This document shows, one piece after another, positions 3,500 to 60,407 of a stretch of DNA of 64,000 nt. Under the pieces are notes generated by a model. That model was not told where the DNA came from and searched no databases. It worked only from the letters and a program-made list of their open reading frames with translations. Numbering within the stretch: the stretch's first letter is position 1; every line of letters begins with the position of its first letter. The DNA is taken from the NCBI GenBank assembly GCA_034231615.1, contig CM067312.1, positions 7,613,747-7,677,746 on the forward strand, read 5' to 3'. The translations under genes were made by a program, and so were the position numbers. The stretch comes from Meghimatium bilineatum. Its lineage: Eukaryota > Mollusca > Gastropoda > Stylommatophora > Philomycidae.

Positions 3500-3660
3500 A
3501 CATGTTTCAAGTGAACGAAAGAAGAAAAACATAACAGATATTGCAGTTAGGCTTAAGGAGAAACATAAAATCTGGATTCTGTTATCTGGTATCCAGCTAG
3601 GCAGGAGTATAAGATCAAAATAAGAGAATAAATGTAACCATTAATCACCATCTATTGGTT

Positions 3661-3710
3661 GGTTGGTTGCTGATCCAGCGGTCCGTGGGCTCATGACCTT
3701 TGACCTAACC
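3661..3710 (+). mobile_element. 50-bp GGTT...AACC element, copy 1
   Basis: A 50-bp block starting GGTTGGTTGCTGATCCAGCG and ending TTTGACCTAACC. It matches the reverse complement of the 50-bp block at 17603-17652 in 45 of 50 positions, with identical ends. A third, more diverged copy is at about 26590-26640. No target duplication is visible here. Confidence 0.6.
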
Positions 3711-4131
3711 TAATGCCATGAAATGGCATATTGCTGGGAAGTCTGTGCATTTTCGGCCCACCCCGAGACAGAGCCAGAGAATAACTATCACACCTCCAGG
3801 AAGGTAGGTTTCAATCTATGCACTGCTCCTAGCCACAGTAGCCAAGATAGGGTTCACTGTGCTCATTCCCCGCCACCAATTGACTACTGGTTATGCCAAA
3901 CTTCTCTTATGCTCCAGGCATAAAACCAAATGTTCACGTCAAAAGGATTGTCACGTCCTGAGTTACTGTGCCTCTATGATGGGTTTCAGCCATAGACAGT
4001 GAGGTCTGTTTCCTCCTCCCCAGTGCTGCACAGTACATCTCTGGCTCCCTCCCATCCACAGAAGGTGCATATATATACATATATATTCAGGTAAACATGA
4101 AACACATTTAAACAACAAAATAAACGCACAA
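3711..4131. other. Spacer, no gene recognised
   Basis: Two short frames (66 codons forward, 62 reverse) overlap here and look like chance. Apart from a short TATATA-type microsatellite at about 4070-4085 I see nothing assignable. Confidence 0.4.
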
Positions 4132-4265
4132 TTGTATAAATGACGTTGCATGAAGCTTCTCTAAGAAGATAACCTCAATATAACGGCATGTCATCCACTA
4201 AGGTTTTCTGTTGCATGGGTGTTTGTCTAGTGGGCCATTGGTGAGACCCACAGACGCAAACACAT
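4132..4265 (+). mobile_element. Dispersed repeat family X, 3' half
   Basis: Matches 8318-8465 and 39695-39868: shared words include CATGAAGCTTCTCTAAGAAG, ATAACCTCAATATAA and TTTTCTGTTGCATGGG. The most complete copy is at 39468-39868. Class unknown. It has no coding frame, so it is probably non-autonomous. Confidence 0.65.
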
Positions 4266-4439
4266 GCGTACCATCTATTGGTAGTAAAGTGTTTATTCGT
4301 ACTCAGAGATAACTCTAGAGAAATACTTTCATTTTTGAAAACATTATACGAATAGTGTCCCTTTCGAAACAAATGGTTAAAAGCATCTTTATACCAACAA
4401 CATGCTACCAATGCCAGACTTGGCATCTGAAATCTAGAC

Positions 4440-4890
4440 ATAGAGAAAGATCAAAATCGCGAAATGAAATGTCTAAGGAAAGCTATTGGAGTCACCAGAC
4501 TCGACAAAATTCACAGTGAGAACATCAGAAAGATAAAAGGTATAACATCATGCATTGAATATATATAGAAACAACATATAAAATAGTTTGAGCATCTTAT
4601 GAAGATGAACTATCAACTTCCCATAGGAGATTATATAGTGCATAATTATATAACAGAAACGAAACTATTTATGCTACCAACTTTTATTTTTCCGGTTGCA
4701 AAATACGGCTGTGAAACATGGATCCTAAGTAAAACAGCGGTAAAAACAGATCAACGACATTGAGACCATTGAGCTGAAATGCTACATGATACTTAGAATA
4801 TCATGGAAGGAAAAAAAAGAGACTCAGATATTATAAACACTTTGAAGATTCCAGAATGTTGGTTACTAAACACAATAGCAAAAAGAAAAC
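4440..4890 (+). mobile_element. LINE C-terminal fragment leading into a minisatellite
   Basis: One forward frame with stops reads REMKCLRKAIGVTRLDK, then FEHLMKM, later FPVAKYGCETWILSK, and finally a piece ending WLLNTIAKRKL. The first part matches the tail of the element at 10223-11450 (REMKFLRKAAGVTRIDR). The second (YGCETW ... LLNTIAKRKL) is the post-reverse-transcriptase region of a related LINE. It may be two fragments joined. The RKL codons run directly into the 36-bp array at 4893. Confidence 0.65.
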
Positions 4891-4892
4891 TA

Positions 4893-5640
4893 CACCCATC
4901 ATTGATTAAGCCAAGGTTTAACTTATGCTACCTATCATTGATTAAGCCAAGGTGTAACTTATGCTACCCATCATTGATTAAGCCAATGTGTAACTTATGC
5001 TACCCATCATTGATTAAGCCAAGGTTTAACTTATGCTACCCATCATTGATTAAGCCAAGGTTTAACTTATGCTACCCATCATTGATTAAGCCAAGGTTTA
5101 ACTTATGCTACCCATCATTGATTAAGCCAAGGTTTAACTTATGCTACCCATCATTGATTAAGCCAAGGTTTAACTTATGCTACCCATCAATGATTAAGCC
5201 AAGATGTAACTTATGCTACCCATCATTGATTAAGCCAAGGTGTAACTTATGCTACCCATCATTGATTAAGCCAAGGTTTAACTTATGCTACCCATCATTG
5301 ATTAAGCCAAGGTGTAACTTATGCTACCCATCATTGATTAAGCCAAGGTTTAACTTATGCTACCCATCATTGATTAAGCCAAGGTTTAACTTATGCTACC
5401 CATCATTGATTAAGCCAATGTTTAACTTATGCTACCCATCATTGATTAAGCCAAAGTTTAACTTATGCTACCCATCATTGATTAAGCCAAGGTTTAACTT
5501 ATGTTACCCATCAATGATTAAGCCAAGGTGTAACTTATGCTACCCATCATTGATTAAGCCAAAGTTTAACTTATGCTACCCATCATTGATTAAGCCAAGG
5601 TTTAACTTATGCTACCCATCATTGATTAAGCCATATACAC
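4893..5640. repeat. 36-bp minisatellite, about 20 copies
   Basis: Units of TCATTGATTAAGCCAAGGTT plus TAACTTATGCTACCCA. Because 36 is a multiple of three, a 281-codon open frame runs through it as a 12-residue repeat (SLIKPRFNLCYP). I treat that frame as a by-product of the repeat. Substitutions cluster at a few positions (AGG/AAG/ATG, TTT/TGT). Confidence 0.95.
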
Positions 5641-6650
5641 ACCTATAGTGTGTAACCGTGTAATTTTTCTTTTAAACAACAAACACAATTTATTGAAATA
5701 TCTCGCTCATGTTTGTACTCACAATTTTAACGATTATTTCCCTTTAAAGCCAGACGGGTTTTTTTCAATGGGTGCTCGAAAACTTCAAGAAGATAACATG
5801 ATTTATGTGCTACTGTGCCTGTATTTAATTTGGTAAAAAACATTTTCTTTAAAAAAAAATTAAAAATTGCTATTTTACAAGTAATATTTGTTTTATTCAG
5901 TTGAACTTTAGTTAGTTTTCTCAATGAAATATTCAACATTGATATCAATTCAGTTTATTTCTACATTAAATTTTTGAGAAAAAATAAACACCATTCTCAA
6001 AAAAAAAACACACACATTATAGAGAAAAGGATACAGCGCCAATAGAAATATCAACTTACAGGTTTTCCGAATTATTATTTTATTTTAACTTATGAATATT
6101 TGAACGTAACACATTTGAAATATTCAGTAATCATATTTGTATCATGAAAAACCGTAAATGGTGTAATATAAGTTGAAACTACAAATTTAGTGGATTATTG
6201 CTCCACTTTCAAAACCTTCACACAATTTACCGTCTTTATGTGAGTCTAGAAATATTTCATATTGTGATGTTTCCTTGATTGGGAATAAACGCCTGGTCAG
6301 ATGACCAACAAATCAAGTATACAACTATGACAGAATATTTATATTTTAATTTTATGTTCTCATCAGTGAACAAATAGTTGTACTCTTATTTCCCTGGACA
6401 TTGTGTTCTCCAGAGAGAACAAGAACGTACGGAAAATAGGAAAAAAAGACGGGGGGGGGGGCAGGACGTGTTGGCCGGATGTTGTCATAAACAGGAATGA
6501 GAGAGAACGATTTTAATGCTTTAAATTTTGCGACATTATTAGGGAGTAATACCGTTTTACGACTTGACGTGGACACCGTTGTGTATGATACATATCTCAA
6601 AGTTGGTAACCAGCGTATAAAATAAACTTCTACACTGAGATTTCTCAAAG
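5641..6650. other. AT-rich spacer
   Basis: About 1 kb of AT-rich DNA with A-runs at 5850-5862 and 5999-6008 and a G-run at 6450-6461. No frame here resembles a known family. Confidence 0.4.
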
Positions 6651-8317: not shown

Positions 8318-8465
8318 GTTACGACTACGGGATTGTATAGATGACGTGACATGAAGCTTCTATAAGAAGATAACCTTATAAAGGCATGTAATCTACTAAG
8401 GTTTTCTGTTGCATGGTTGGTTTGTCTGATGAGATCCAGAGACGCAACCGTATGCGCAATAAATA
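8318..8465 (+). mobile_element. Dispersed repeat family X, 3' half
   Basis: Starts at AAGGTTACGACTACGGGATT and continues through CATGAAGCTTCTATAAGAAG to CAGAGACGCAACC. It aligns along its length with 39685-39860 and 4132-4265. The 5' half of the family is absent here. Confidence 0.65.
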
Positions 8466-10222: not shown

Positions 10223-11450
10223 CTATTGTATTTCCCCATGTGGTTTGTTATCCACTCTTGCCGTTAAGCGTAGGGGTAATTGGAGCTCGAGCTTGCGTTC
10301 TAAAGCCAGATGTGTGGCCTCGGCTGTGCTATGACCGTGTCTGTACAGGATATCCTTGACGTTTTCTATCCATCTTTTCCATGGTCTTCCTCTGGCTTTG
10401 TACCCAGATCTCATTTGGTTATATGCTTGCACGGGCAACGTTTCGTCATGCATTCTCATAATGTGACCAAACCATTTGATCTGCTACCTATCTATGTCTT
10501 CTGTGCAAGGTGTTATGCCTATTCTTTTCCCCCTGATGTCTTAATTTCGTAATCTGTCAATCCTGGTGACCCCTGCAGCTTTCCTCAAGAATTTCATTTC
10601 ACGTGTGACTATCTTTCTGTAATGTGAAGATGAGAGAGACCAGGGTTGGCACTGGTAACACAGTGTTGGTAGGAATATACTGTAGATAATTTGTCTTTTA
10701 ACTTCCATCTCGATCTTGGGGTGAAGAAGTAGTGGTGACAGTTGGTAAGTTACTGCATTTGCCTTTTGACATCTCGTCTCTATTTCTCTATCGAGGCTTC
10801 CATTTTCTGTAAAAATACTACCGAGATATTTGAACTCTATTTGTTTTACTCCTATATTGACTATCTGTATGTTTAGTGGACTCGTTCTGCATATTTTCAT
10901 AGTTTCCGTCTTGTGTGTATTGATCTTCATGTTGTATTTTCTACATGTTGCAGATAGTGAGCTAACATGATTCTGTAGTTGTTCTTCGTTTTCGTATATG
11001 AGGCTCTGATTGTCTGCGAAAAGTAGTTTATTTATTTCATTGTTTAGTTGCTCTGAGTTGTCTTGTGATGTTTCCCTCTTCACTTTTTTTTTTTACCTCT
11101 TATATTATTCTAACAAACGATACGAAGACAGTCCACCTATTGGACGCCCTCGCAAAAGGTGGATAGATAGTGTATTAGAGAGACTCGGAAATATAACAGC
11201 AGAAGAGGCAAATAGAAAGGCAAAAAACCGTACACTCACTCTCCCCTCAACATCGAAAGGTACATGAGGACAGACAGAAGAAGAAGAAGATTATTCTATA
11301 TATGTATATATTGAAAAGCAAGGGTGAGAGCACGCTACCGTAGCCCACTCCCGTTAGTAAATTGTACATTATCTCAACTCTGTTATTCATCCTTTTACGT
11401 AGACAATTGTGTACGTAGGAAATAAAATATAGATGTACGCAGGTGTACAC
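10223..11450 (-). mobile_element. LINE reverse transcriptase, dead, interrupted
   Basis: The minus strand reads a reverse transcriptase and tail: GSVLSPLLFNIYI (11300-11360), then after an interruption (11113-11289) KRETSQDNSEQ, LLFADNQSL, KINTHKTETMKI, FKYLGSIFTENGSLDREIET, PTLCYQCQPWSL, REMKFLRKAAGVTRIDR, WFGHIMRMHDETLP and GYKARGRPWKRWIENV. All of 10223-11083 is one frame with only two or three stops. The catalytic box is FADN instead of FADD, so the second metal-binding Asp is lost. Everything upstream of GSVLSPLLFN is missing beyond about 11450. The element resembles common invertebrate LINEs of the RTE/jockey grade. I do not assign a clade. Confidence 0.85.
11113..11289 (+). mobile_element. 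LINE tail nested in another LINE, with target duplication
   Basis: A 177-bp insertion in the opposite orientation to its host. It encodes GRPRKRWIDSVLERLGNITA then EEANRKAKNR, the common LINE C-terminus, and ends in a (GAA)n-type tail. It is flanked by the 9-bp direct repeat ATTATTCTA at 11104-11112 and 11290-11298. Removing the insertion and one repeat brings the host frame back together from FNIYI to KRETSQDN, with one stop between. This is a 5'-truncated target-primed insertion. Confidence 0.8.
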
Positions 11451-17165: not shown

Positions 17166-17457
17166 ATTTTTTTCTTTTTTAAAAACAATTAGAATTGGCC
17201 TTACGATATATTTTATTATCATCCAAATTACTGCGTACGGAGGTGAGTACGGTGTTTGGAGAAAAAGGGGGGGGGGTGGGGTGTCTCCACTTTCGTGTCC
17301 CTATGACTTTGACCATTGCTTGAGGGTTTCTTAATATTGTCATATTATTCGCCTGTTTTGGTTGCAAAGAAATTTTTCTAGTCGAAACGTCGCACGTGCT
17401 TATTTTCATTCTTATTATGCTGTTTTATCTATTGGTGACTAACTACTATATGTAGAT

Positions 17458-17742
17458 CAAGGGTACACTAAATGAGGCATGCGGGCCCAATCCGACCCAT
17501 CAAGTAAATAGCACTGGCCCGCCAGGATGAAATTAGAAGTTTAAAGGTAGTACGTGCGCTGATCTCTGAGTTTGAAAACACTTATTCTAATTCTAAGTTG
17601 TTGGTTGGGTCAAAGGGCATGAGCCCATGAACCGCTGGATCAGCAACTAACCAATTCTAAGTTGTTAAAAAATGTTGCCGGTCCATTCCCACAGTAGAAA
17701 AATAAAATCCATTTTCTGACTCACATAGGTTGCCCACATCTG
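17458..17742. mobile_element. Possible hAT-like MITE carrying a nested insertion
   Basis: The left end CAAGGGTACACTAAATGAGG, followed by GCGGGCCC, and the right end (reverse strand) CAGATGTGGGCAACCTATG resemble hAT MITE ends, but the inverted match is weak. Interior text such as CCGACCCATCAAG and TGGCCCGCC is typical of such elements. A 50-bp insertion at 17603-17652 interrupts it. Confidence 0.35.
17603..17652 (-). mobile_element. 50-bp GGTT...AACC element with 14-bp target duplication
   Basis: Exactly 50 bp, starting GGTTGGGTCAAAGGGCATGA and ending GCAACTAACC. It is flanked by the perfect 14-bp direct repeat AATTCTAAGTTGTT at 17589-17602 and 17653-17666. In reverse complement it matches 3661-3710 at 45 of 50 positions. 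The ends are short inverted repeats (GGTTGG and GGTTAG). A 14-bp duplication is unusual for classical DNA transposons and fits retroposition or an unfamiliar integrase. Confidence 0.7.
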
Positions 17743-21993: not shown

Positions 21994-22103
21994 TTGAAAC
22001 TTGTTTGTGACCTCTCTCCCCCAATTTCAGAATCGTTCTCCGTGGCCCACTACATTGTTTCCGCAGACCTCAAGTGAATGATATCACTCAAATTGCGACC
22101 GGT

Positions 22104-22630
22104 CAGTATTACCTGTGGTGTTGCTCTCACAATCAGTATTACCTGTGGTGTTGCTCTCACAATCAGTATTACCTGTGGTGTTGCTCTCAAAATCAGTATT
22201 ACCTGTGGGGGTTGCTCTCACAATCAGTATTACCTGTGGTGTTGCTCTCAAAATCAGTATTACCTGTGGTGTTGCTCTGAGAATCATTATTACCTGTGGT
22301 GTTGCTCTCACAATCAGTATTACTTGTGGTGTTGCTCTCACAATCAGTATTACCTGTGGTGTTGCTCTCAATATCAGTATTACCTGTGGTGTTGCTCTCA
22401 AAATCAGTATTACCTGTGATGTTGCTCTGACAATCAGTATTACCTGTGATGTTGCTCTGACAATCAGTATTACCTGTGATGTTGCTCTGACAATCAGTAT
22501 TACCTGTGATGTTGCTCTGACAATCAGTATTACCTGTGGTGTTGCTCTCACAATCAGTATTACCTGTGGTGTTGCTCTCACAATCAGTATTACCTGTGGT
22601 GTTGCTCTCACAATCAGTATTACCTGTGGG
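22104..22630. repeat. 30-bp minisatellite, about 17 copies
   Basis: CAGTATTACCTGTGGTGTTG plus CTCTCACAAT. A block of four units with TGATGTTGCTCTGACAAT (22420-22540) stands between blocks of the GTGGT form. Frames of up to 234 codons cross it on both strands and are repeat by-products. Confidence 0.95.
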
Positions 22631-22664
22631 TGGAGCTCATCCTCGAAAAAGGTTGAGAACCCGT

Positions 22665-24610
22665 GCTCTGCGGTAACAAGAAAGAACAATCATGGGAACA
22701 TTTTGCACATGTTTCTACATATTATTTATCTATACCTGGTTTCATTGCCACATTCTCCCCAGGGTACAAAGTTTACACTAAGGGATCGTACATTGGTGGT
22801 TCAAGGTTTCGTCCGTTGATAGTTGTTCCTTATAGATGAGCTAGTGTACAGTGCGAGCAATGCTCACATAGGGATTGCGACGTACGGCTGGCTCAATCTT
22901 ATTTCATATTCGGCTTTAGCGACCGGTCACATTTCCCAACACACAACCTCATAAACTTGTCGTTGCGGTTGTGTCCTTAGTCCATCTTCCGTTATATTTC
23001 ATCGGGACTTCTGCCACACCGACCACCACTGACTATGACATTAAGGTCGTTTGACACCAACTATTCACCTGCGACCAACTGACAGCCCCCCCCCCCCCCC
23101 CACTGCGTCATCTTATACATTTCACATGAGTTAGTTGTAGTACCAGGTTCGCCTCCTTCCGCTATGGCCTTCGTTTCTTGTCCTTTTATTCTCCACCTTC
23201 ACTGATGCCCTTTTCTTAGGAACCGTCTTCCCAAGGCTTCCTTTATCAGACTCTGTTTGATACCTTCCTACGACGCACTTTTCCGTGATGGTTCCCTCCT
23301 CTTCAGCTGTGCCTTCCCTGCGTCCCATGGACATCCTCCTACCTCCGCATTCCTTCAGTGTGTGACGTATCTTCGTTTTAGTTTGGGGGCCTACATCGAT
23401 CTTCCACTTTCACTTCTCTTCTTTCTCGCATCTTTATTTACCCCCTTTTCATTATCCTTCTTTCTCTAAACCTCATTTCTCTCTTTTTATCTGTTATTAT
23501 ATGCCATTTTGTTCGAGTTATGGCTATTGATACATGCCCTTTTTGGCTACTATTGTCCTGCCTTACGCTTATGTTCTATTTTGCCGCGCATTCTCTATAC
23601 TCCCTATCTTTGTTTCATCCGGTTTTTGTCCGGATGTGTGGTAACAGGCCACACTTTACTATTTAATCTTGTGTCTTTAGTACATCTTTCTTTTTCACTG
23701 GAAACCACTATTCAGCTAAGTTTATTTTTATTTTTATTCTATGTGCATTATCATTTCCTCTTTTTATGTGCACTTTCCCCTCCTGACTACCACTTTCATC
23801 TTCCTCTCACATCCTCTTGTCCCTGTCATGTTACCCTATCTGTACCTACTCCGTTGTCCCCTCGCTACTGTCCTTCATCCCTCTTTTTTCCTTCCTATCA
23901 CCACCATGTCTGTCTCTATGTAATATTTCTTTACTGTGGTCTTTTGTTTGTCCTGATGAAGGCTGCTTAGTCGAAACGTCGTCTGTCGCTGTCTCGTTGT
24001 TTAGGTTGTCATATCGACTTATTTTGGTAACACTTATATTTATTTTTGTTCATTTTGATGTTTACCTTGTATTATCCCAGCCACCCATTTCCTGTTTGGG
24101 GTCGTTACCTGACACCGGAACTTTTATCCCCGACTATATACCGTTCTGTTTGTCTGGCGTTCAACCTGTCTCGTTATTTAATAGACTCAATATTCTCCTA
24201 AAGTGTAATAGTAATAACATTGTCTATCGAACCTCCACCGTTTCTGGCTACCAATTCACCACCTGTTGCGTCGTGAAAGAGAGTCACAAAACTGTTTACA
24301 CAATTGCCAAATGGAGTCGCACAACTTCTATCAAATCAAGAGTCATCGCAATTTGAACACTTCATAAATTATTCAGAACAGAGTATTTTGGAACATTGAA
24401 TCCCTGAGGCAACAAGTTCAATACCAAGTAAGAACTCTGCAAACATTAGATTGTTATGCTGTGGTAATCAAGACCTGGTTGGTCTTGTTGGAAATACGAG
24501 TGTTTTAGGATTCCTGGAATACTTGTACTTGTTTAGGGAATGTCAGATCTCTAGTGCTCGTCAATTATACAGTCCTGTGGAATAATCGTGATCATATATC
24601 TAGAATACCA
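22665..24610. other. Pyrimidine-rich spacer with a dispersed motif
   Basis: A C-run at 23086-23101. 23140-23960 is strongly C/T-rich on the plus strand, giving hydrophobic frames (153 codons at 23509-23970, 179 codons at 23817-24356) that I do not trust. At 23955-24045, GCTTAGTCGAAACGTCGTCT, GTCGCTGTCTCG and TTTTGGTAACACTTA match the reverse complement of 47890-47970, so this is a dispersed repeat of at least 90 bp. Confidence 0.4.
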
Positions 24611-24939: not shown

Positions 24940-25100
24940 CGTTCTCACATTCCCACCGGTTCTCTCTTACAGCAGACACAATGTCCTGCGAGATTTCTAA
25001 CAGGGTGTAGTCTACAGAACGGAAGTGCGTTGTGTCGCCCTTTTATTTGCGCCAATGGCATGACACATTCGTCTTTGACGCTGGTAAACTAATACATTCA
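24940..25100 (-). mobile_element. GAA-tailed SINE-like element, fragment
   Basis: Reverse-oriented copy. Plus-strand words GTGTAGTCTACAGAACGGAA, GTGCGTTGTGTCGCCCTTTT, ATTTGCGCCAATGGC and GACACATTCGTCTTTGACGC parallel 26865-26940 and 51535-51615. Confidence 0.65.
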
Positions 25101-26352: not shown

Positions 26353-26589
26353 GCTGGGGTAAACATTTGAGACAATGAGACAATAGCTACACTGGTGTTC
26401 TATGACTGAGACCTACCTTAAAGGCACACAAGTTCGGTATAACCAGTAGGAAGTTGATGGTGGGAAAACTGCACAGTGAACTATATCGTGGATGCAAAAA
26501 CATGGATCGCCGCATAGGACAGAAGGTTTCCTCTCTGGTGGTATGACAGTTATTAATCTGGTCCCGGGAAGGTAGAAAATTCAGACTTA

Positions 26590-26640
26590 TCAGCATAATG
26601 GATGAAACCCACGGGCCGCTGGATCGGAAACTAACTATTT
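26590..26640 (-). mobile_element. 50-bp element, copy 3, diverged
   Basis: GATGAAACCCACGGGCCGCT followed by GGATCGGAAACTAACTA aligns with the second two-thirds of 17603-17652 (GAGCCCATGAACCGCTGGAT CAGCAACTAACC). No target duplication is visible. Confidence 0.45.
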
Positions 26641-26728
26641 AACTGACATTGAATAGTGAACCTTTAACATTTTATTTTTCTGGAGAAGTTTTTGACATTC
26701 TTAAAGAAAACCCGTTTTCTTGCACATG

Positions 26729-27312
26729 TTGCTTGAGATGGTTGGTATTTGTTACTGGATGCTTGAGATGGTTGGTATCTGTTACTGGATGCTTCTTCTT
26801 CTGCGTTCATTCTCAAACTCCCGCTGGATCTAGCAGGATCATGGTCCTGCTAGATTTCCAGCAGGATGTAGTCCAGAAAATGGAAATGCGTTGTGTCGCC
26901 GTTTTATTTGCGCCAATGGCCCGACACATCCGTCTTCGGCGGAACTGGATGCTTGAGATGGTAGGTATTTGTTACTGGATGCTTGAGATGGTTGGTATTT
27001 GTTACTGGATGCTTGAGATGGTTGGTATTTGTTACTGGATGCTTGAGATGGTTGGTATTTGTTACTGGATGCTTGAGATGGTTGGTATTTGTTACTGGAT
27101 GCTTGAGATGGTTGGTATGTGTTACTGGATGCTTGAGATGGTTGGTATTTGTTACTGGATGCTTGAGATGGTTGGTATTTGTTACTGGATGCTTGAGATG
27201 GTTGGTATTTGTTACTGGATGCTTGAGATGGTTGGTATTTGTTACTGGATGCTTGCGATGGTTGGTATTTGCTACTGGATGCTTGAGATGGTTGGTATTT
27301 GCTACTGGGTGG
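26729..27312. repeat. 30-bp minisatellite split by a SINE
   Basis: GCTTGAGATGGTTGGTATTT plus GTTACTGGAT. Two units lie at 26732-26790 and about 12 more at 26945-27312, either side of a reverse-oriented SINE. A 351-codon forward frame crosses the array, the SINE and the next array. It is not a gene. Confidence 0.95.
26790..26944 (-). mobile_element. GAA-tailed SINE-like element inserted in an array
   Basis: A clear 150-bp copy in reverse. The plus strand begins CTTCTTCTTCTGCGTTCATT (the GAA tail reversed) and ends ACACATCCGTCTTCGGCGGA. CTGGATCTAGCAGGA and TCCTGCTAGATTTCCAG at 26822-26860 make a strong hairpin. ACTGGATGCTT stands on both sides, consistent with a target duplication, although the host unit contains the same word. 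Confidence 0.75.
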
Positions 27313-27427
27313 TTGAGCTACCAATCTGTTTACTAATGCTATACGGATTTATTGTTCTCAAGTTGGGGGATCAAACATTATTGAAGAAATCATACCACTA
27401 TATAGACGATGGATGTGGATTACGTGG

Positions 27428-37454: not shown

Positions 37455-37620
37455 CTTGTCGCCGAAGACGGATGTGTCGGGCCATTGGCGGAAATAAAAC
37501 GGCGACACTACGCATTTCCATTCTCTGGACTATATCCTGCTGGAAATCTAATAGGGCCATTGTCCTACTGCAATAGAGATCCGGCAGGAGTTATAGAATG
37601 AATGCTGAAGAAGAAGAAGA
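37455..37620 (+). mobile_element. GAA-tailed SINE-like element
   Basis: GCCGAAGACGGATGTGTCGG, GCCATTGGCGGAAATAAAAC, GGCGACACTACGCATTTCCA, TCTCTGGACTATATCCTGCT, GGCAGGAGTTATAGAATGAA and a GAAGAAGAAGAAG tail. It is the best 3' half of the family and the direct complement of 26790-26944. Confidence 0.75.
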
Positions 37621-39467: not shown

Positions 39468-39868
39468 ACAGCATGAAGGGCATTCCCATAAGTGCTTCGC
39501 CCTCTGTTCCAGCAGCCATCCGACTCGATTGAATTTCGAGTCCAATGCCGACGAAACAGACGTCGACATCAGGGCACAACTCTGGCCCTTGCGACAGGTT
39601 TCTTTGTTGTTCCGCTAACCAACGCCGTGCCCGTAACTAGTTCAAACACAATGTAGGTCTGTCGGAACAACATGGTAACTGTTATCGAAGGTTACGACTA
39701 CGGAATTGTATAGAAGACGTTCCATGAAGCTTCTCTAAGAAGATAACCTCAATATAAAGGCATGTCATCTACTACGGTTTTCTGTTGCATGGGTGGTTTG
39801 TCTAGTGAGCCATTGGTGAGAGCCACAGATGCAACCACATGCACATTTTGTCTGTGTCGTCAGACAAC
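39468..39868 (+). mobile_element. Dispersed repeat family X, longest copy
   Basis: About 400 bp. 5' half: AAGGGCATTCCCATAAGTGC, GACGTCGACATCAGGGCACA, CTTGCGACAGGTTTCTTTGT, GTGCCCGTAACTAGTTCA, GGAACAACATGGTAACTGTT; matches 61240-61470. 3' half: TTACGACTACGGAATTGTAT, ATGAAGCTTCTCTAAGAAGA, TCTGTTGCATGGGTGG, GAGAGCCACAGATGCAACCA; matches 4132-4265 and 8318-8465. Only this copy joins the halves. No coding frame, no clear terminal repeats, class unknown. Confidence 0.7.
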
Positions 39869-51449: not shown

Positions 51450-51620
51450 TTGTGTTTCTTCTTCTTTAGTGTTCATTCTCAAACTCCTGCTCGATCTCTC
51501 TTGTATCAGGACAATCGTCCAAGTAGACTTCCAGCAGGATGTAGTGCAGAAAATGGAAATACGTTGTGTCGCCGCTTCATTAGCGCCAATGGTTCGACAT
51601 ATCCGTCTTCAGTGGTATTA
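51450..51620 (-). mobile_element. GAA-tailed SINE-like element
   Basis: Reversed: GTGTTTCTTCTTCTTTAGTG, TTCATTCTCAAACTCCTGCT, GACTTCCAGCAGGATGTAGT, TACGTTGTGTCGCCGCTTCA and CGACATATCCGTCTTCAGTG. Close to 26790-26944 along its full length. Confidence 0.7.
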
Positions 51621-56290: not shown

Positions 56291-56910
56291 ACACTATATA
56301 CTGGATAAAATAAAGTTATTTTTATTATTATTACAAAATAAAAGAAATGAAACAAGATTTAAAAAATTACAATAAAGCATTTCAGAGTGAAAATTTCACA
56401 ATAAAATATTCACAATAAAAAATTTCACAGTACAATATATTACAATCCAAAATTAAACAATAAAAAAATTCCAGTCAAATATTTCATAATAAAAATTACA
56501 AAATCAATAATTTCACAATGAAATATTGCACGATAAAAAATGTTACAATAAAAAAATTTCGCAATCAGAAATTTCAAATAACTGTCGAATGAATAATATA
56601 GTATGCGTACTCATAAAAAAATATATGTAAAATATATCTTGCTGCTGTGTATGTAGATTTCAGTTAAAAACATACTACCTAAGAATCCAAAGATTATCTG
56701 TCACAAACAGCGAGGATCACAGTAACACCAATAGATAATAATGTGAAATAGGATATGTGTTAATCTGTTAGTGTGATATATGGTAGAGAGGTGAGAATGT
56801 TGATCTCACATTTATTGTTCGGCTTCCTGCAAGGAATTTTTTTTTCTGACGGATGGTAAATTTGATAAAATCCAACCCTGTGCATGTCGTGGCAACAGCA
56901 AACAAATATG
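56291..56910. other. AT-rich spacer with a degenerate short repeat
   Basis: 56370-56590 is a loose tandem of AATTTCACAATAAAA-type words, too diverged for an exact unit. No gene. Confidence 0.5.
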
Positions 56911-56914
56911 ACAG

Positions 56915-57292
56915 TTATGACACAGCGACAAGTTTTGACACAGCGACAAGTTATGACACAGCGACAAGTTATGACACAGTGACAAGTTATGACACAGCGA
57001 CAAGTTATGACACAGCGACAAGTTATGACACAGCGACAAGTTATGACACAGCGACAAGTTATGACACAGCGACAACTTATGACACAGCGACAAGTTATGA
57101 CACAGCGACAAGTTATGACACAGCGACAAGTTATGACACAGCGACAAGTTATGACACAGTGACAAGTTATGACACAGCGACAAGTTATGACACAGCGACA
57201 AGTTATGACACAGCGACAACTTATGACACAGCGACAAGTTATGACACAGCGACAAGTTATGACACAGCGACAAGTTATGACACAGCGACAAG
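56915..57292. repeat. 18-bp minisatellite, about 21 copies
   Basis: ACAGCGACAAGTTATGAC, very uniform. The 18-bp period keeps long frames open: 170 codons forward (Thr/Ala/Ser/Tyr/Asp) and 224 and 159 codons reverse (RCVITC and LSLCHN repeats). None is a credible gene. Confidence 0.95.
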
Positions 57293-57534
57293 TATCTCCC
57301 TGTACTTCATGACACCAAAAAAAAAATTTAAAAAAAAACATAAAAAAATTAGCTGTGACAGTTGAATAAGTTACAAGGAAAATATAATTGAAACAAAATA
57401 AAAATACGAAATAGCAGCATATCCTATTCAGCACGTAGCCAGAAACCCAACATTTTGAGGCTATAGTGATTTCCTAGGCAATATAAATACTGTCAGTAGT
57501 TTGACATTCTTTCTGAAAAGTTCAGATGCACAAT
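57293..57534. other. Spacer, no gene recognised
   Basis: A-rich tail at 57318-57346 after the array, then unassigned DNA. Confidence 0.35.
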
Positions 57535-57834: not shown

Positions 57835-58005
57835 TACACTTTTTCTCACACTCCCACCTGGTCTGTCTTGCAGCGGGACAGAAGTCCTATAAAATTTCCA
57901 GCCGGAGGATATCCTACAGCAGGATGTAGTCCAGAGAATGTTAATACGTTATATCGTCGTTTTATGTGCGACAATAGCCCGATAAATTCGACTTAGGCGT
58001 TGGTA
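57835..58005 (-). mobile_element. GAA-tailed SINE-like element
   Basis: Reversed: TTTCTCACACTCCCACCTGG, GACAGAAGTCCTATAAAATT, ACAGCAGGATGTAGTCCAGA, ACGTTATATCGTCGTTTTAT and CGATAAATTCGACTTAGGCG. Confidence 0.6.
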
Positions 58006-58042: not shown

Positions 58043-58668
58043 TTCGGGCTATAGTAGCTCAGTTGTTAGTGTAGGCTTCAGTAGCCCAATTGTTAGTGCA
58101 TGCTACAGTAGCTCAGTTGTTAGTGCGGGCTACAGTAGCTCAGTTGTTAGTGTGGGCTACAGTAGCTCAGTTGTTAGTGCGGGCTACAGTAGCTCAGTTG
58201 TTAGTGCAGGCTTCAGTAGCCCAATTGTTAGTGCATGCTACAGTAGCTCAGTTGTTAGTGCGGGCTACAGTAGCTCAGTTGTTAGTGTGGGCTACAGTAG
58301 CTCAGTTGTTAGTGCGGGCTACAGTAGCTCAGTTGTTAGTGCAGGCTTCAGTAGCCCAATTGTTAGTGCATGCTACAGTAGCTCAGTTGTTAGTGCGGGC
58401 TACAGTAGCTCAGTTGTTAGTGTGGGCTACAGTAGCTCAGTTGCTAGTGCGGGCTACAGTAGCTCAGTTGTTAGTGCAGGCTTCAGTAGCCCAATTGTTA
58501 GTGCATGCTACAGTAGCTCAGTTGTTAGTGCGGGCTACAGTAGCTCAGTTGTTAGTGTGGGCTACAGTAGCTCAGTTGTTAGTGCATGCTACAGTAGCTC
58601 AGTTGTTAGTGTGGGCTACAGTAGCTCAGTTGTTAGTGCGAGCTACAGTAGCTCAGTTGTTAGTGAAC
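58043..58668. repeat. 27-bp array of a tRNA-like A-box head
   Basis: About 23 copies of GGGCTACAGTAGCTCAGTTG plus TTAGTGC. The unit is the 5' part of a tRNA: acceptor-like GGGCTAC, then TAGCTCAGTTG, a near-ideal A-box. Five units (one GGCTTCAGTAGCCCAATTG and four others) form a 135-bp higher-order repeat present about three times. Frames of 216 and 173 codons are by-products of the 27-bp period. The array leads directly into the SINE at 58669. Confidence 0.9.
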
Positions 58669-58862
58669 TCTAACTATAACCGTAGTAGATCAAGTGTTAG
58701 TAAACTGACTTCCTGTTCGGGCGATCCAAGGTTTAACTAGAAATATTTTGAAATCACCACTGGCTTCTAGGTCGACCCAGATTAGGAAATGCGTACCAGA
58801 CGTAATGGGAAAGTAATGGCCGTGGGCTTGATCCTGATCAATTCATCTGCAGGTACGCTGGG
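58669..58862 (+). mobile_element. tRNA-derived SINE between two arrays
   Basis: Head GTAGTAGATCAAGTGTTAGT with a drifted A-box, then CCTGTTCGGGCGATCCAAGG at the B-box position, then the family body TAGGTCGACCCAGATTAGGA, AATGCGTACCAGACGTAATG and GGAAAGTAATGGC, and a tail ending AATTCATCTGCAG. The body matches 1-178 and 42585-42735. Its head is amplified on the left and its tail on the right. Confidence 0.7.
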
Positions 58863-59422: not shown

Positions 59423-60407
59423 TCATTTTCCTTTTGCGCTGAAGTTAGCGCATAGGGCAGAGGTCAGATCTCTCCAATTCTGTCTGTTCTAAGCTATTCT
59501 GTGCAGCTCTTGAATAGTATGAATAATGGTTGTTTTACTTTCTCTGAGTGTTTCTTTTGGTCTATCCCATGCTCTTTTGCCTGTAGGTATCCATTCAAGA
59601 GATTGGTGGTGTATTCTGTTGGTGTCTGCGCGTAAGACATGCCCGATGTAGGACAAACAGCGTTTTCTGATAACATCTGTGATGAAATTTTGATGTGTCT
59701 CTTCTCTGATTTTATCATTCGATTTGAATTCACTCCAGAGGGTGTTAGTTATCCTACGAAGACATTTGTTCTCGAAACTTAGTAATTTCTTTTCTGAAGA
59801 TAAAGAGCTTTTCCAGCTCTCACATACATATGATAGCACCGGAATAACGCAGGAATTAAATAAGCGCATTTTCGTGCGTGTGCTGATTGACTTTGACTTC
59901 CAGATATTAGACAGTCTGTTAAATACACTTGATGCTAGGGCAATGGGAGTTGTAATTTCTGTCATGGCATCACCGTCGAGTGTTAATTTGCTTCCTAGAT
60001 AGGAGAATTTCTGTACTTTTTCAAGTTGTTGTCCATTTAAAGTAATTTCGTTAGGTGAATTGGTGAATTCCATAATTTTTGTCTTTGCTGAATTGATTTG
60101 GAGACCTAGTTGTCCTGCAATGAGTTTTAATCTATCAGTTTTTGTTTGTGCATCTTGATGGTTTTCACTCAATAGTGCAAGATCATCGGCAAAATCCAGG
60201 TCTTCTAATATTGTTTTATTTATCCATTTGATTCCTAAATTTGTGTTGGATGTGCTTTTTCTCATATCCCAGTCAATTACAATATTGAATAGTAATGGTG
60301 ACATAGGGCAGCCTTGTTTAACACCAGTAATCACAGGGAACCATTCTGAATTGCCTCTTTCTGTTCTAACACAGCATTTAGATGACCACAGATGGCCACA
60401 GATATAC
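59423..60407 (-). mobile_element. LINE reverse transcriptase, C-terminal two-thirds
   Basis: The best reverse transcriptase in the window, from a non-LTR retrotransposon (nuclear target-primed reverse transcription). One minus-strand frame runs from about 60407: HLWSSKCCVRTERGNSEWFP, TGVKQGCPMSPLLFNIVIDW, LEDLDFADDLALLS with both catalytic Asp, GLQINSAKTKIMEF, KFSYLGSKLTLDGDA, VIPVLSYVCESWKSS, FENKCLRRITNTLW, LSYIGHVLRADTNRIHH and IQELHRIA. A single TAG at 59489-59491 follows, probably from CAG, and the frame then reads NRQNWRDLTSALCANFSAKG to TGA at 59423. The 5' half (endonuclease and N-terminal fingers) is missing, with a stop at 60408. A GTG at 60334 is not a real start. Confidence 0.9.

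Follow-up and report, generated by a model that had tools for sequence, protein, structure and literature searches.

A 50-bp insertion between 14-bp target duplications in a Meghimatium bilineatum genome is a tail-only copy of a LINE, very probably made by TPRT

The window, a stretch of 64,000 nucleotides of the Meghimatium bilineatum genome, carries at positions 17603-17652 an insert of 50 bp, flanked on either side by a perfect 14-bp copy of AATTCTAAGTTGTT. This arrangement, noticed in the original prediction, was confirmed both by reading the sequence and by a direct-repeat scan. The 14-mer AATTCTAAGTTGTT occurs 17 times in 1.61 Gb, as does its reversed control, and since it is thus at chance level genome-wide, the presence of two copies 64 bp apart is not due to chance but represents a true duplication. 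The insert consists of the last codons of a LINE with their stop codon, followed by 3'UTR sequence of 26 nt and a tail of (AACC)n, and 44 nt of it match the end of this LINE at 95% in the alignment. The two G residues at its left edge were taken as putative junction filler. The GGTT...AACC termini had been read as the unit's own ends. They are not terminal inverted repeats: AACC is the repeat unit of the tail, and GGTT is made up of the two extra G and the TT that precedes GGGTC in the LINE. Nothing on the left side supported a nested position of the insert in a hAT-like MITE: in a genome-wide search at E<=0.001, the left flank (17350-17602) gave no match other than itself. The inverted arms near the insert measure 22 nt and are 77% complementary. 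A scan of the window against Rfam gave no family at threshold.

Table 1. Features of the insert and of related SINE copies in the window.
Position	Strand	Feature	Basis
17589..17602	.	Target-site duplication, left copy AATTCTAAGTTGTT	Sequence reading, direct-repeat scan
17603..17604	+	Two extra bases GG between duplication and LINE-derived sequence	Comparison with LINE sequence GCATTGGGTC
17605..17652	+	LINE 3' end comprising the last codons TTGGGTCAAAGGGCA, the TGA stop, a 3'UTR predicted to form two hairpins and the tail AACTAACC	Alignment, fold
17620..17622	+	TGA, stop codon of the RT reading frame in LINE copy L099	Frame ending ...MALGQRA stop
17653..17666	.	Target-site duplication, right copy AATTCTAAGTTGTT	Sequence reading, direct-repeat scan
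3647..3659	.	13-bp target duplication ACCATCTATTGGT, copy adjoining the SINE tail	Perfect repeat
3660..4269	-	SINE copy, ~88% to another copy, ending in the same tail as the insert	Alignment
4270..4282	.	13-bp target duplication ACCATCTATTGGT, copy adjoining the SINE 5' end	Perfect repeat
26430..26640	+	Same SINE, probably an old and diverged copy; tail at 26608-26635	26430-26491 at 77%, 26608-26635 at 86%

Two further places in the window had been proposed to hold the same unit. The first, at 3661-3710 on the opposite strand, is indeed 90% identical to the insert over 50 bp in the alignment; it does not stand alone as a block of 50 bp but forms the 3' end of a SINE of 610 bp. At the second, 26590-26640, the proposed diverged relationship is retained to the extent that 20-28 bp align to the other two places. 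As a unit on its own it is not retained, since the upstream segment aligns to part of the SINE-copy region, which makes it probable that a longer copy ends here. No target duplication was found around this diverged copy. Internal fragments of the SINE, with 85-90% similarity, are also present at 8332-8431 and 39704-39842.

A search of the 1,612,235,226-base genome with a 35-nt core of the insert, allowing <=3 mismatches, returned 13,362 matches as compared to 0 for the control. The same genome has 50 matches to the mollusc haemocyanin domain (Pfam PF14830), grouped in two clusters, versus none in 14 control genomes, in keeping with a molluscan host. When read on the other strand, the tail copies have on one side an (AACC)n run, in which the repeat number varies, and on the other side mostly one of two bodies. 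Among the matches listed, 97 were sampled, 39 of which carried body 1 (a SINE) and 30 body 2 (a LINE). Nine matches in a tandem array at locus L057 were set aside to give a sample of 88 rows. L046, L053, L054 and L060 are not among these rows, being identical to another row over 75 nt; the pairs L049/L052 and L107/L108 look like duplicated loci. The original prediction had named copies longer than 50 bp as evidence that would speak against an independent element. Such copies were looked for, and 69 of the 88 extend past 50 bp into a body (39 SINE-type, 30 LINE-type), which argues against an independent 50-bp element. What stands of the proposed discrete mobile unit is a true insertion with a true duplication, with similar tail-only inserts at hundreds of places; what does not stand is a DNA transposon. 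The array of about 0.75 kb inside L057 (G000:C1:9503800-9506200) contains the 14-mer ATGATCTATCTATG 16 times, with pieces of the tail between the copies and spacings of 51 (9 times), 43 (5) and 58 (1). It looks like a tail-only insertion that was expanded, together with its target duplication, into a satellite.

Judged from the domains that it encodes, body 2 is a LINE (a non-LTR retrotransposon). In copy L099, an open frame of 1,029 codons runs into the tail and contains RVT_1 (2.1e-36), RNase_H (4.3e-14) and zf-RVT (4.6e-6) domains. It terminates in ...MALGQRA, and its stop codon falls inside the 50-bp block. A second frame on the same strand, about 1.9 kb upstream and separate from the RT frame, contains an APE-type Exo_endo_phos_2 domain (2.2e-18). 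A longer autonomous element with the same ends had been proposed as something to look for, and it exists in the form of this RT-bearing LINE. Ten other LINE copies were compared with L099, of which nine were 88.6-99.1% identical over about 1 kb and the tenth, L034, 89.1%. The LINE copies have a common 3' end and are truncated at many upstream points. By its domain content, the LINE is tentatively placed in the I superfamily, members of which, Nimbus and Ingi, are among the LINEs reported in gastropods (PMC11203168). The far end of the 7.5-kb L099 stretch also holds a SINE copy, which aligns to window positions 3728-4287, and the window itself contains other reverse transcriptase remnants at 10541-11083 (minus strand, RVT_1 2.6e-9) and 59489-60334 (minus strand, RVT_1 5.9e-13).

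The SINE that shares the tail is about 590-610 bp long, and 30 of the 39 copies match a reference copy over at least 583 nt. The ends of the SINE and the LINE have 51 nt in common, which are usually 94-98% identical. The first G of the LINE tail is usually an A in the SINE: copies that are neither LINE nor tail-only showed TTAGG in 24 cases versus TTGGG in 10, and TGGG was present in 24 of the 30 LINE copies.

Target duplications were scored in all three classes of copies. Scores of at least 9 were obtained for 37 of 52 short copies (the 40 fetched tail-like loci less identical ones, plus some short copies off the hotspot described below), 26 of 42 SINE copies and 14 of 32 LINE copies, while the respective controls gave 1/18, 1/39 and 0/31. 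In a stricter test, 26 of the 40 tail-like loci scored at least 10 versus none of 40 with shuffled flanks; the scan used in this test missed repeats that are visible by eye in L123, L131 and L134. Fifteen of the 52 short copies had no duplication passing the threshold. The most frequent lengths were 12 for short copies (range 9-16) and 12-14 for both SINE and LINE copies. The letter after the nick was mostly A (30/37 short, 18/26 SINE and 10/14 LINE copies), and the letters before it were mostly T, or T and G, in all three classes. Since the lengths centre on 12-14 for tail-only, LINE and SINE copies alike, a 14-bp duplication is ordinary for this LINE, and the common duplication length and similar nick site mean that TPRT fits all three classes. 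The insert in the window belongs to an ordinary class of event, being a 5'-truncated LINE copy. Only two of the 40 tail-like loci, L123 and L134, also lack the AACC tail; they have about 33-36 nt between their duplications and end in a predicted loop.

Most LINE copies are 5'-truncated, for reasons that are debated. The unusual feature of the present family is that so many copies begin at one base, together with the near absence of such copies among A-type (SINE) tails. In the sample, 13 of the 88 rows, including the window insert, consist of the tail alone, beginning 42-44 nt ahead of the end of CAGCAACC. Without the window insert, 12 of 87 start within 3 nt of (T)TGGGTC, 11 of them independent in view of the apparent duplicate L049/L052; at L074 the alignment runs on by chance and the true end was taken from the duplication. 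The other LINE ends in the fetched stretches (n = 18) lie between 77 and 814 nt. Accordingly, 11 of 29 LINE-derived ends within the last ~814 nt fall in a single 3-nt bin (P of about 1e-19 if ends were uniform). Genome-wide, there are 2,342 exact G-type tails; 598 of them carry T at -1 and a base other than A at -3, making them tail-only candidates, and 1,298 have GCATT attached. Among 40 candidate loci fetched in list order, the flanks identified 36 as tail-only and four (L110, L111, L122 and L136) as body-attached, so that the number of 598 is too high by about a tenth, while it also misses those tail-only copies whose base at -3 is A or whose base at -1 is not T. The base at -3 in the 36 tail-only loci, with A excluded by the search, was T in 22, C in 7 and G in 7 cases, which hints weakly at untemplated additions where the template ends. 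A second favoured 5' end, seen in L017, L038, L071 and L136, is 127 nt away from the end of the tail, and for it there are at most 182 candidates versus 1,032 intact copies; 182 is an upper bound because a C-to-T change also yields many candidates. This end starts with CCCTCCAGGG, which, judged by eye, is able to fold into a small hairpin. The two favoured ends are located 14 and 98 nt upstream of the stop codon. In a limited search of the open-access literature, no earlier report of this LINE, this SINE or the tail-only hotspot was found.

A-type tails were found alone in 38 cases versus 1,449 with ATT attached (2.6%). This is about the level expected from mutation of attached copies, and A-type SINE RNAs therefore give rise to tail-only copies seldom or never, even though they carry the same tail. 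The odds ratio between G-type and A-type tails is 17.6 (598:1,298 versus 38:1,449), the denominators not being built in quite the same way (GCATT versus ATT); with the largest G-type denominator (2,342 minus 598) it becomes about 13. The A/G difference may itself alter the hotspot site. Some SINE copies are themselves G-type (10 of the 34 sampled ones with TTRGG), and these are a possible source of tail-only copies.

Taken as a whole, the 50-bp unit is very probably a tail-only LINE copy generated via TPRT, with breakage of the LINE RNA before copying as the favoured explanation for its 5' end. The identity to the LINE end, the duplications with their common site preference and the very many copies with this 5' end are established, and from them we infer the enzyme and the TPRT steps. 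Before copying, the LINE RNA would already have been broken, either by cleavage or by trimming as far as the foot of the tail hairpin. The LINE enzyme would nick the target just ahead of an A, with a preference for about TTT/G|A, and the nick would prime copying of the (AACC)n-tailed 3' end of the LINE RNA. Copying would run past the stop codon for about 14 nt and end there, and second-strand cutting would then leave the 14-bp target duplication. The unit is predicted to fold into two hairpins (-17.9 kcal/mol; z of -2.9 relative to 500 simple 44-nt shuffles), and it is at the base of the first of these that the favoured 5' end lies. It is possible, though doubtful, that the RT instead pauses or falls off at the hotspot base owing to RNA structure, tail-only copies then being 'strong-stop' products of TPRT. 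Indeed, a further hairpin is predicted directly upstream of the break point, perfect in the SINE and weaker in the LINE, and the existence of the second favoured end would also be in line with pausing. However, an enzyme stopped by a hairpin should stop on the SINE, with its identical downstream template and stronger hairpin, at least as often as on the LINE, and the A-type counts reveal almost no such copies. These counts speak against the SINE hairpin as the cause of truncation. We therefore lean, tentatively, to RNA that was broken before copying rather than to a pausing enzyme. In a more specific and rather doubtful version, the LINE RNA would undergo processing at one fixed position, 14 nt before the stop codon, and the recognition tail of ~46 nt set free in this way would suffice by itself as a template. 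The product would be a minimal retroposon consisting of nothing but the binding site of the enzyme, generated repeatedly from LINE RNA and not from the tail-sharing SINE.

The sharp 5' end in hundreds of copies could also be expected of an independent mini-SINE, with source copies of its own that are transcribed into a short RNA of this sequence and no more. We regard this as unlikely, as the LINE sub-types CACGG and CATGG give tail-only copies in similar proportion (6/22 and 6/20, the latter counting the duplicated pair L049/L052), which fits a repeated origin from the LINE, and as no internal promoter was recognisable by eye. Less probable again is that a terminating ribosome shields the RNA end from 5'-3' decay, to which the remainder is lost, and that the protected remnant is copied. 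The 5' end 14 nt upstream of the stop codon and the need for LINE-type tails would agree with this, but the ends at -14 and -98 do not match the decay footprints described for yeast at -17, -47/-50 and -77/-80 (PMC9017187) or the footprint of 16-17 nt described for Arabidopsis (PMC11834196). Lastly, a DNA transposon or MITE of 50 bp, bounded by GGTT...AACC and making duplications of 14 bp, which the discrete block and the perfect duplication had initially suggested, is practically untenable. The variable number of AACC units, the duplications of 9-16 bp rather than of a fixed length, the body-bearing relatives and the RT-bearing LINE with the same end all speak against it, and the AACC and GGTT ends are otherwise explained.

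The present LINE family resembles 5'-truncated LINEs and the I superfamily in the combination of RT and RNase H with an APE-type endonuclease frame nearby, the 12-14-bp duplications, the many truncation points and the short repeat tail. It differs in that about a quarter of the exact G-type tails end at one base, leaving the tail alone. As in the stringent LINE/SINE pairs UnaL2, ZfL2-1 and ZfL2-2, as described in PMC4176376, the SINE bears the 3' end of the LINE, with predicted stem-loops followed by a short repeat; unlike in the pairs described there, the tail begins within the last codons of the reading frame, and its recognition is putative. The mammalian tailless retropseudogenes described in PMC5322556 are likewise very small inserts of a TPRT-like kind that have duplications and break at preferred points, and L123 and L134 are also tailless, with an end in a predicted loop. 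Those retropseudogenes, as described, have preferred 3' ends and no tail, whereas here the 5' end is sharp and nearly all copies are tailed; the window copy ends in AACTAACC and is thus not tailless. A LINE with hundreds of copies ending at one base, together with a tail-sharing SINE without them, offers a natural test of whether the enzyme was stopped or the RNA was already broken. As few as about 33-46 nt of the LINE end are enough for insertion.

The window contains another repeat of about 80-157 bp at five places that are 82-86% alike (24983-25075, 26791-26941, 37460-37616, 51458-51610 and 57917-57999). In addition, long in-frame tandem repeats create long open frames on one or both strands, for example at 4803-5648, 22084-22819, 26649-27324, 56760-57434 and 58090-58740, and these are probably minisatellites and not genes.
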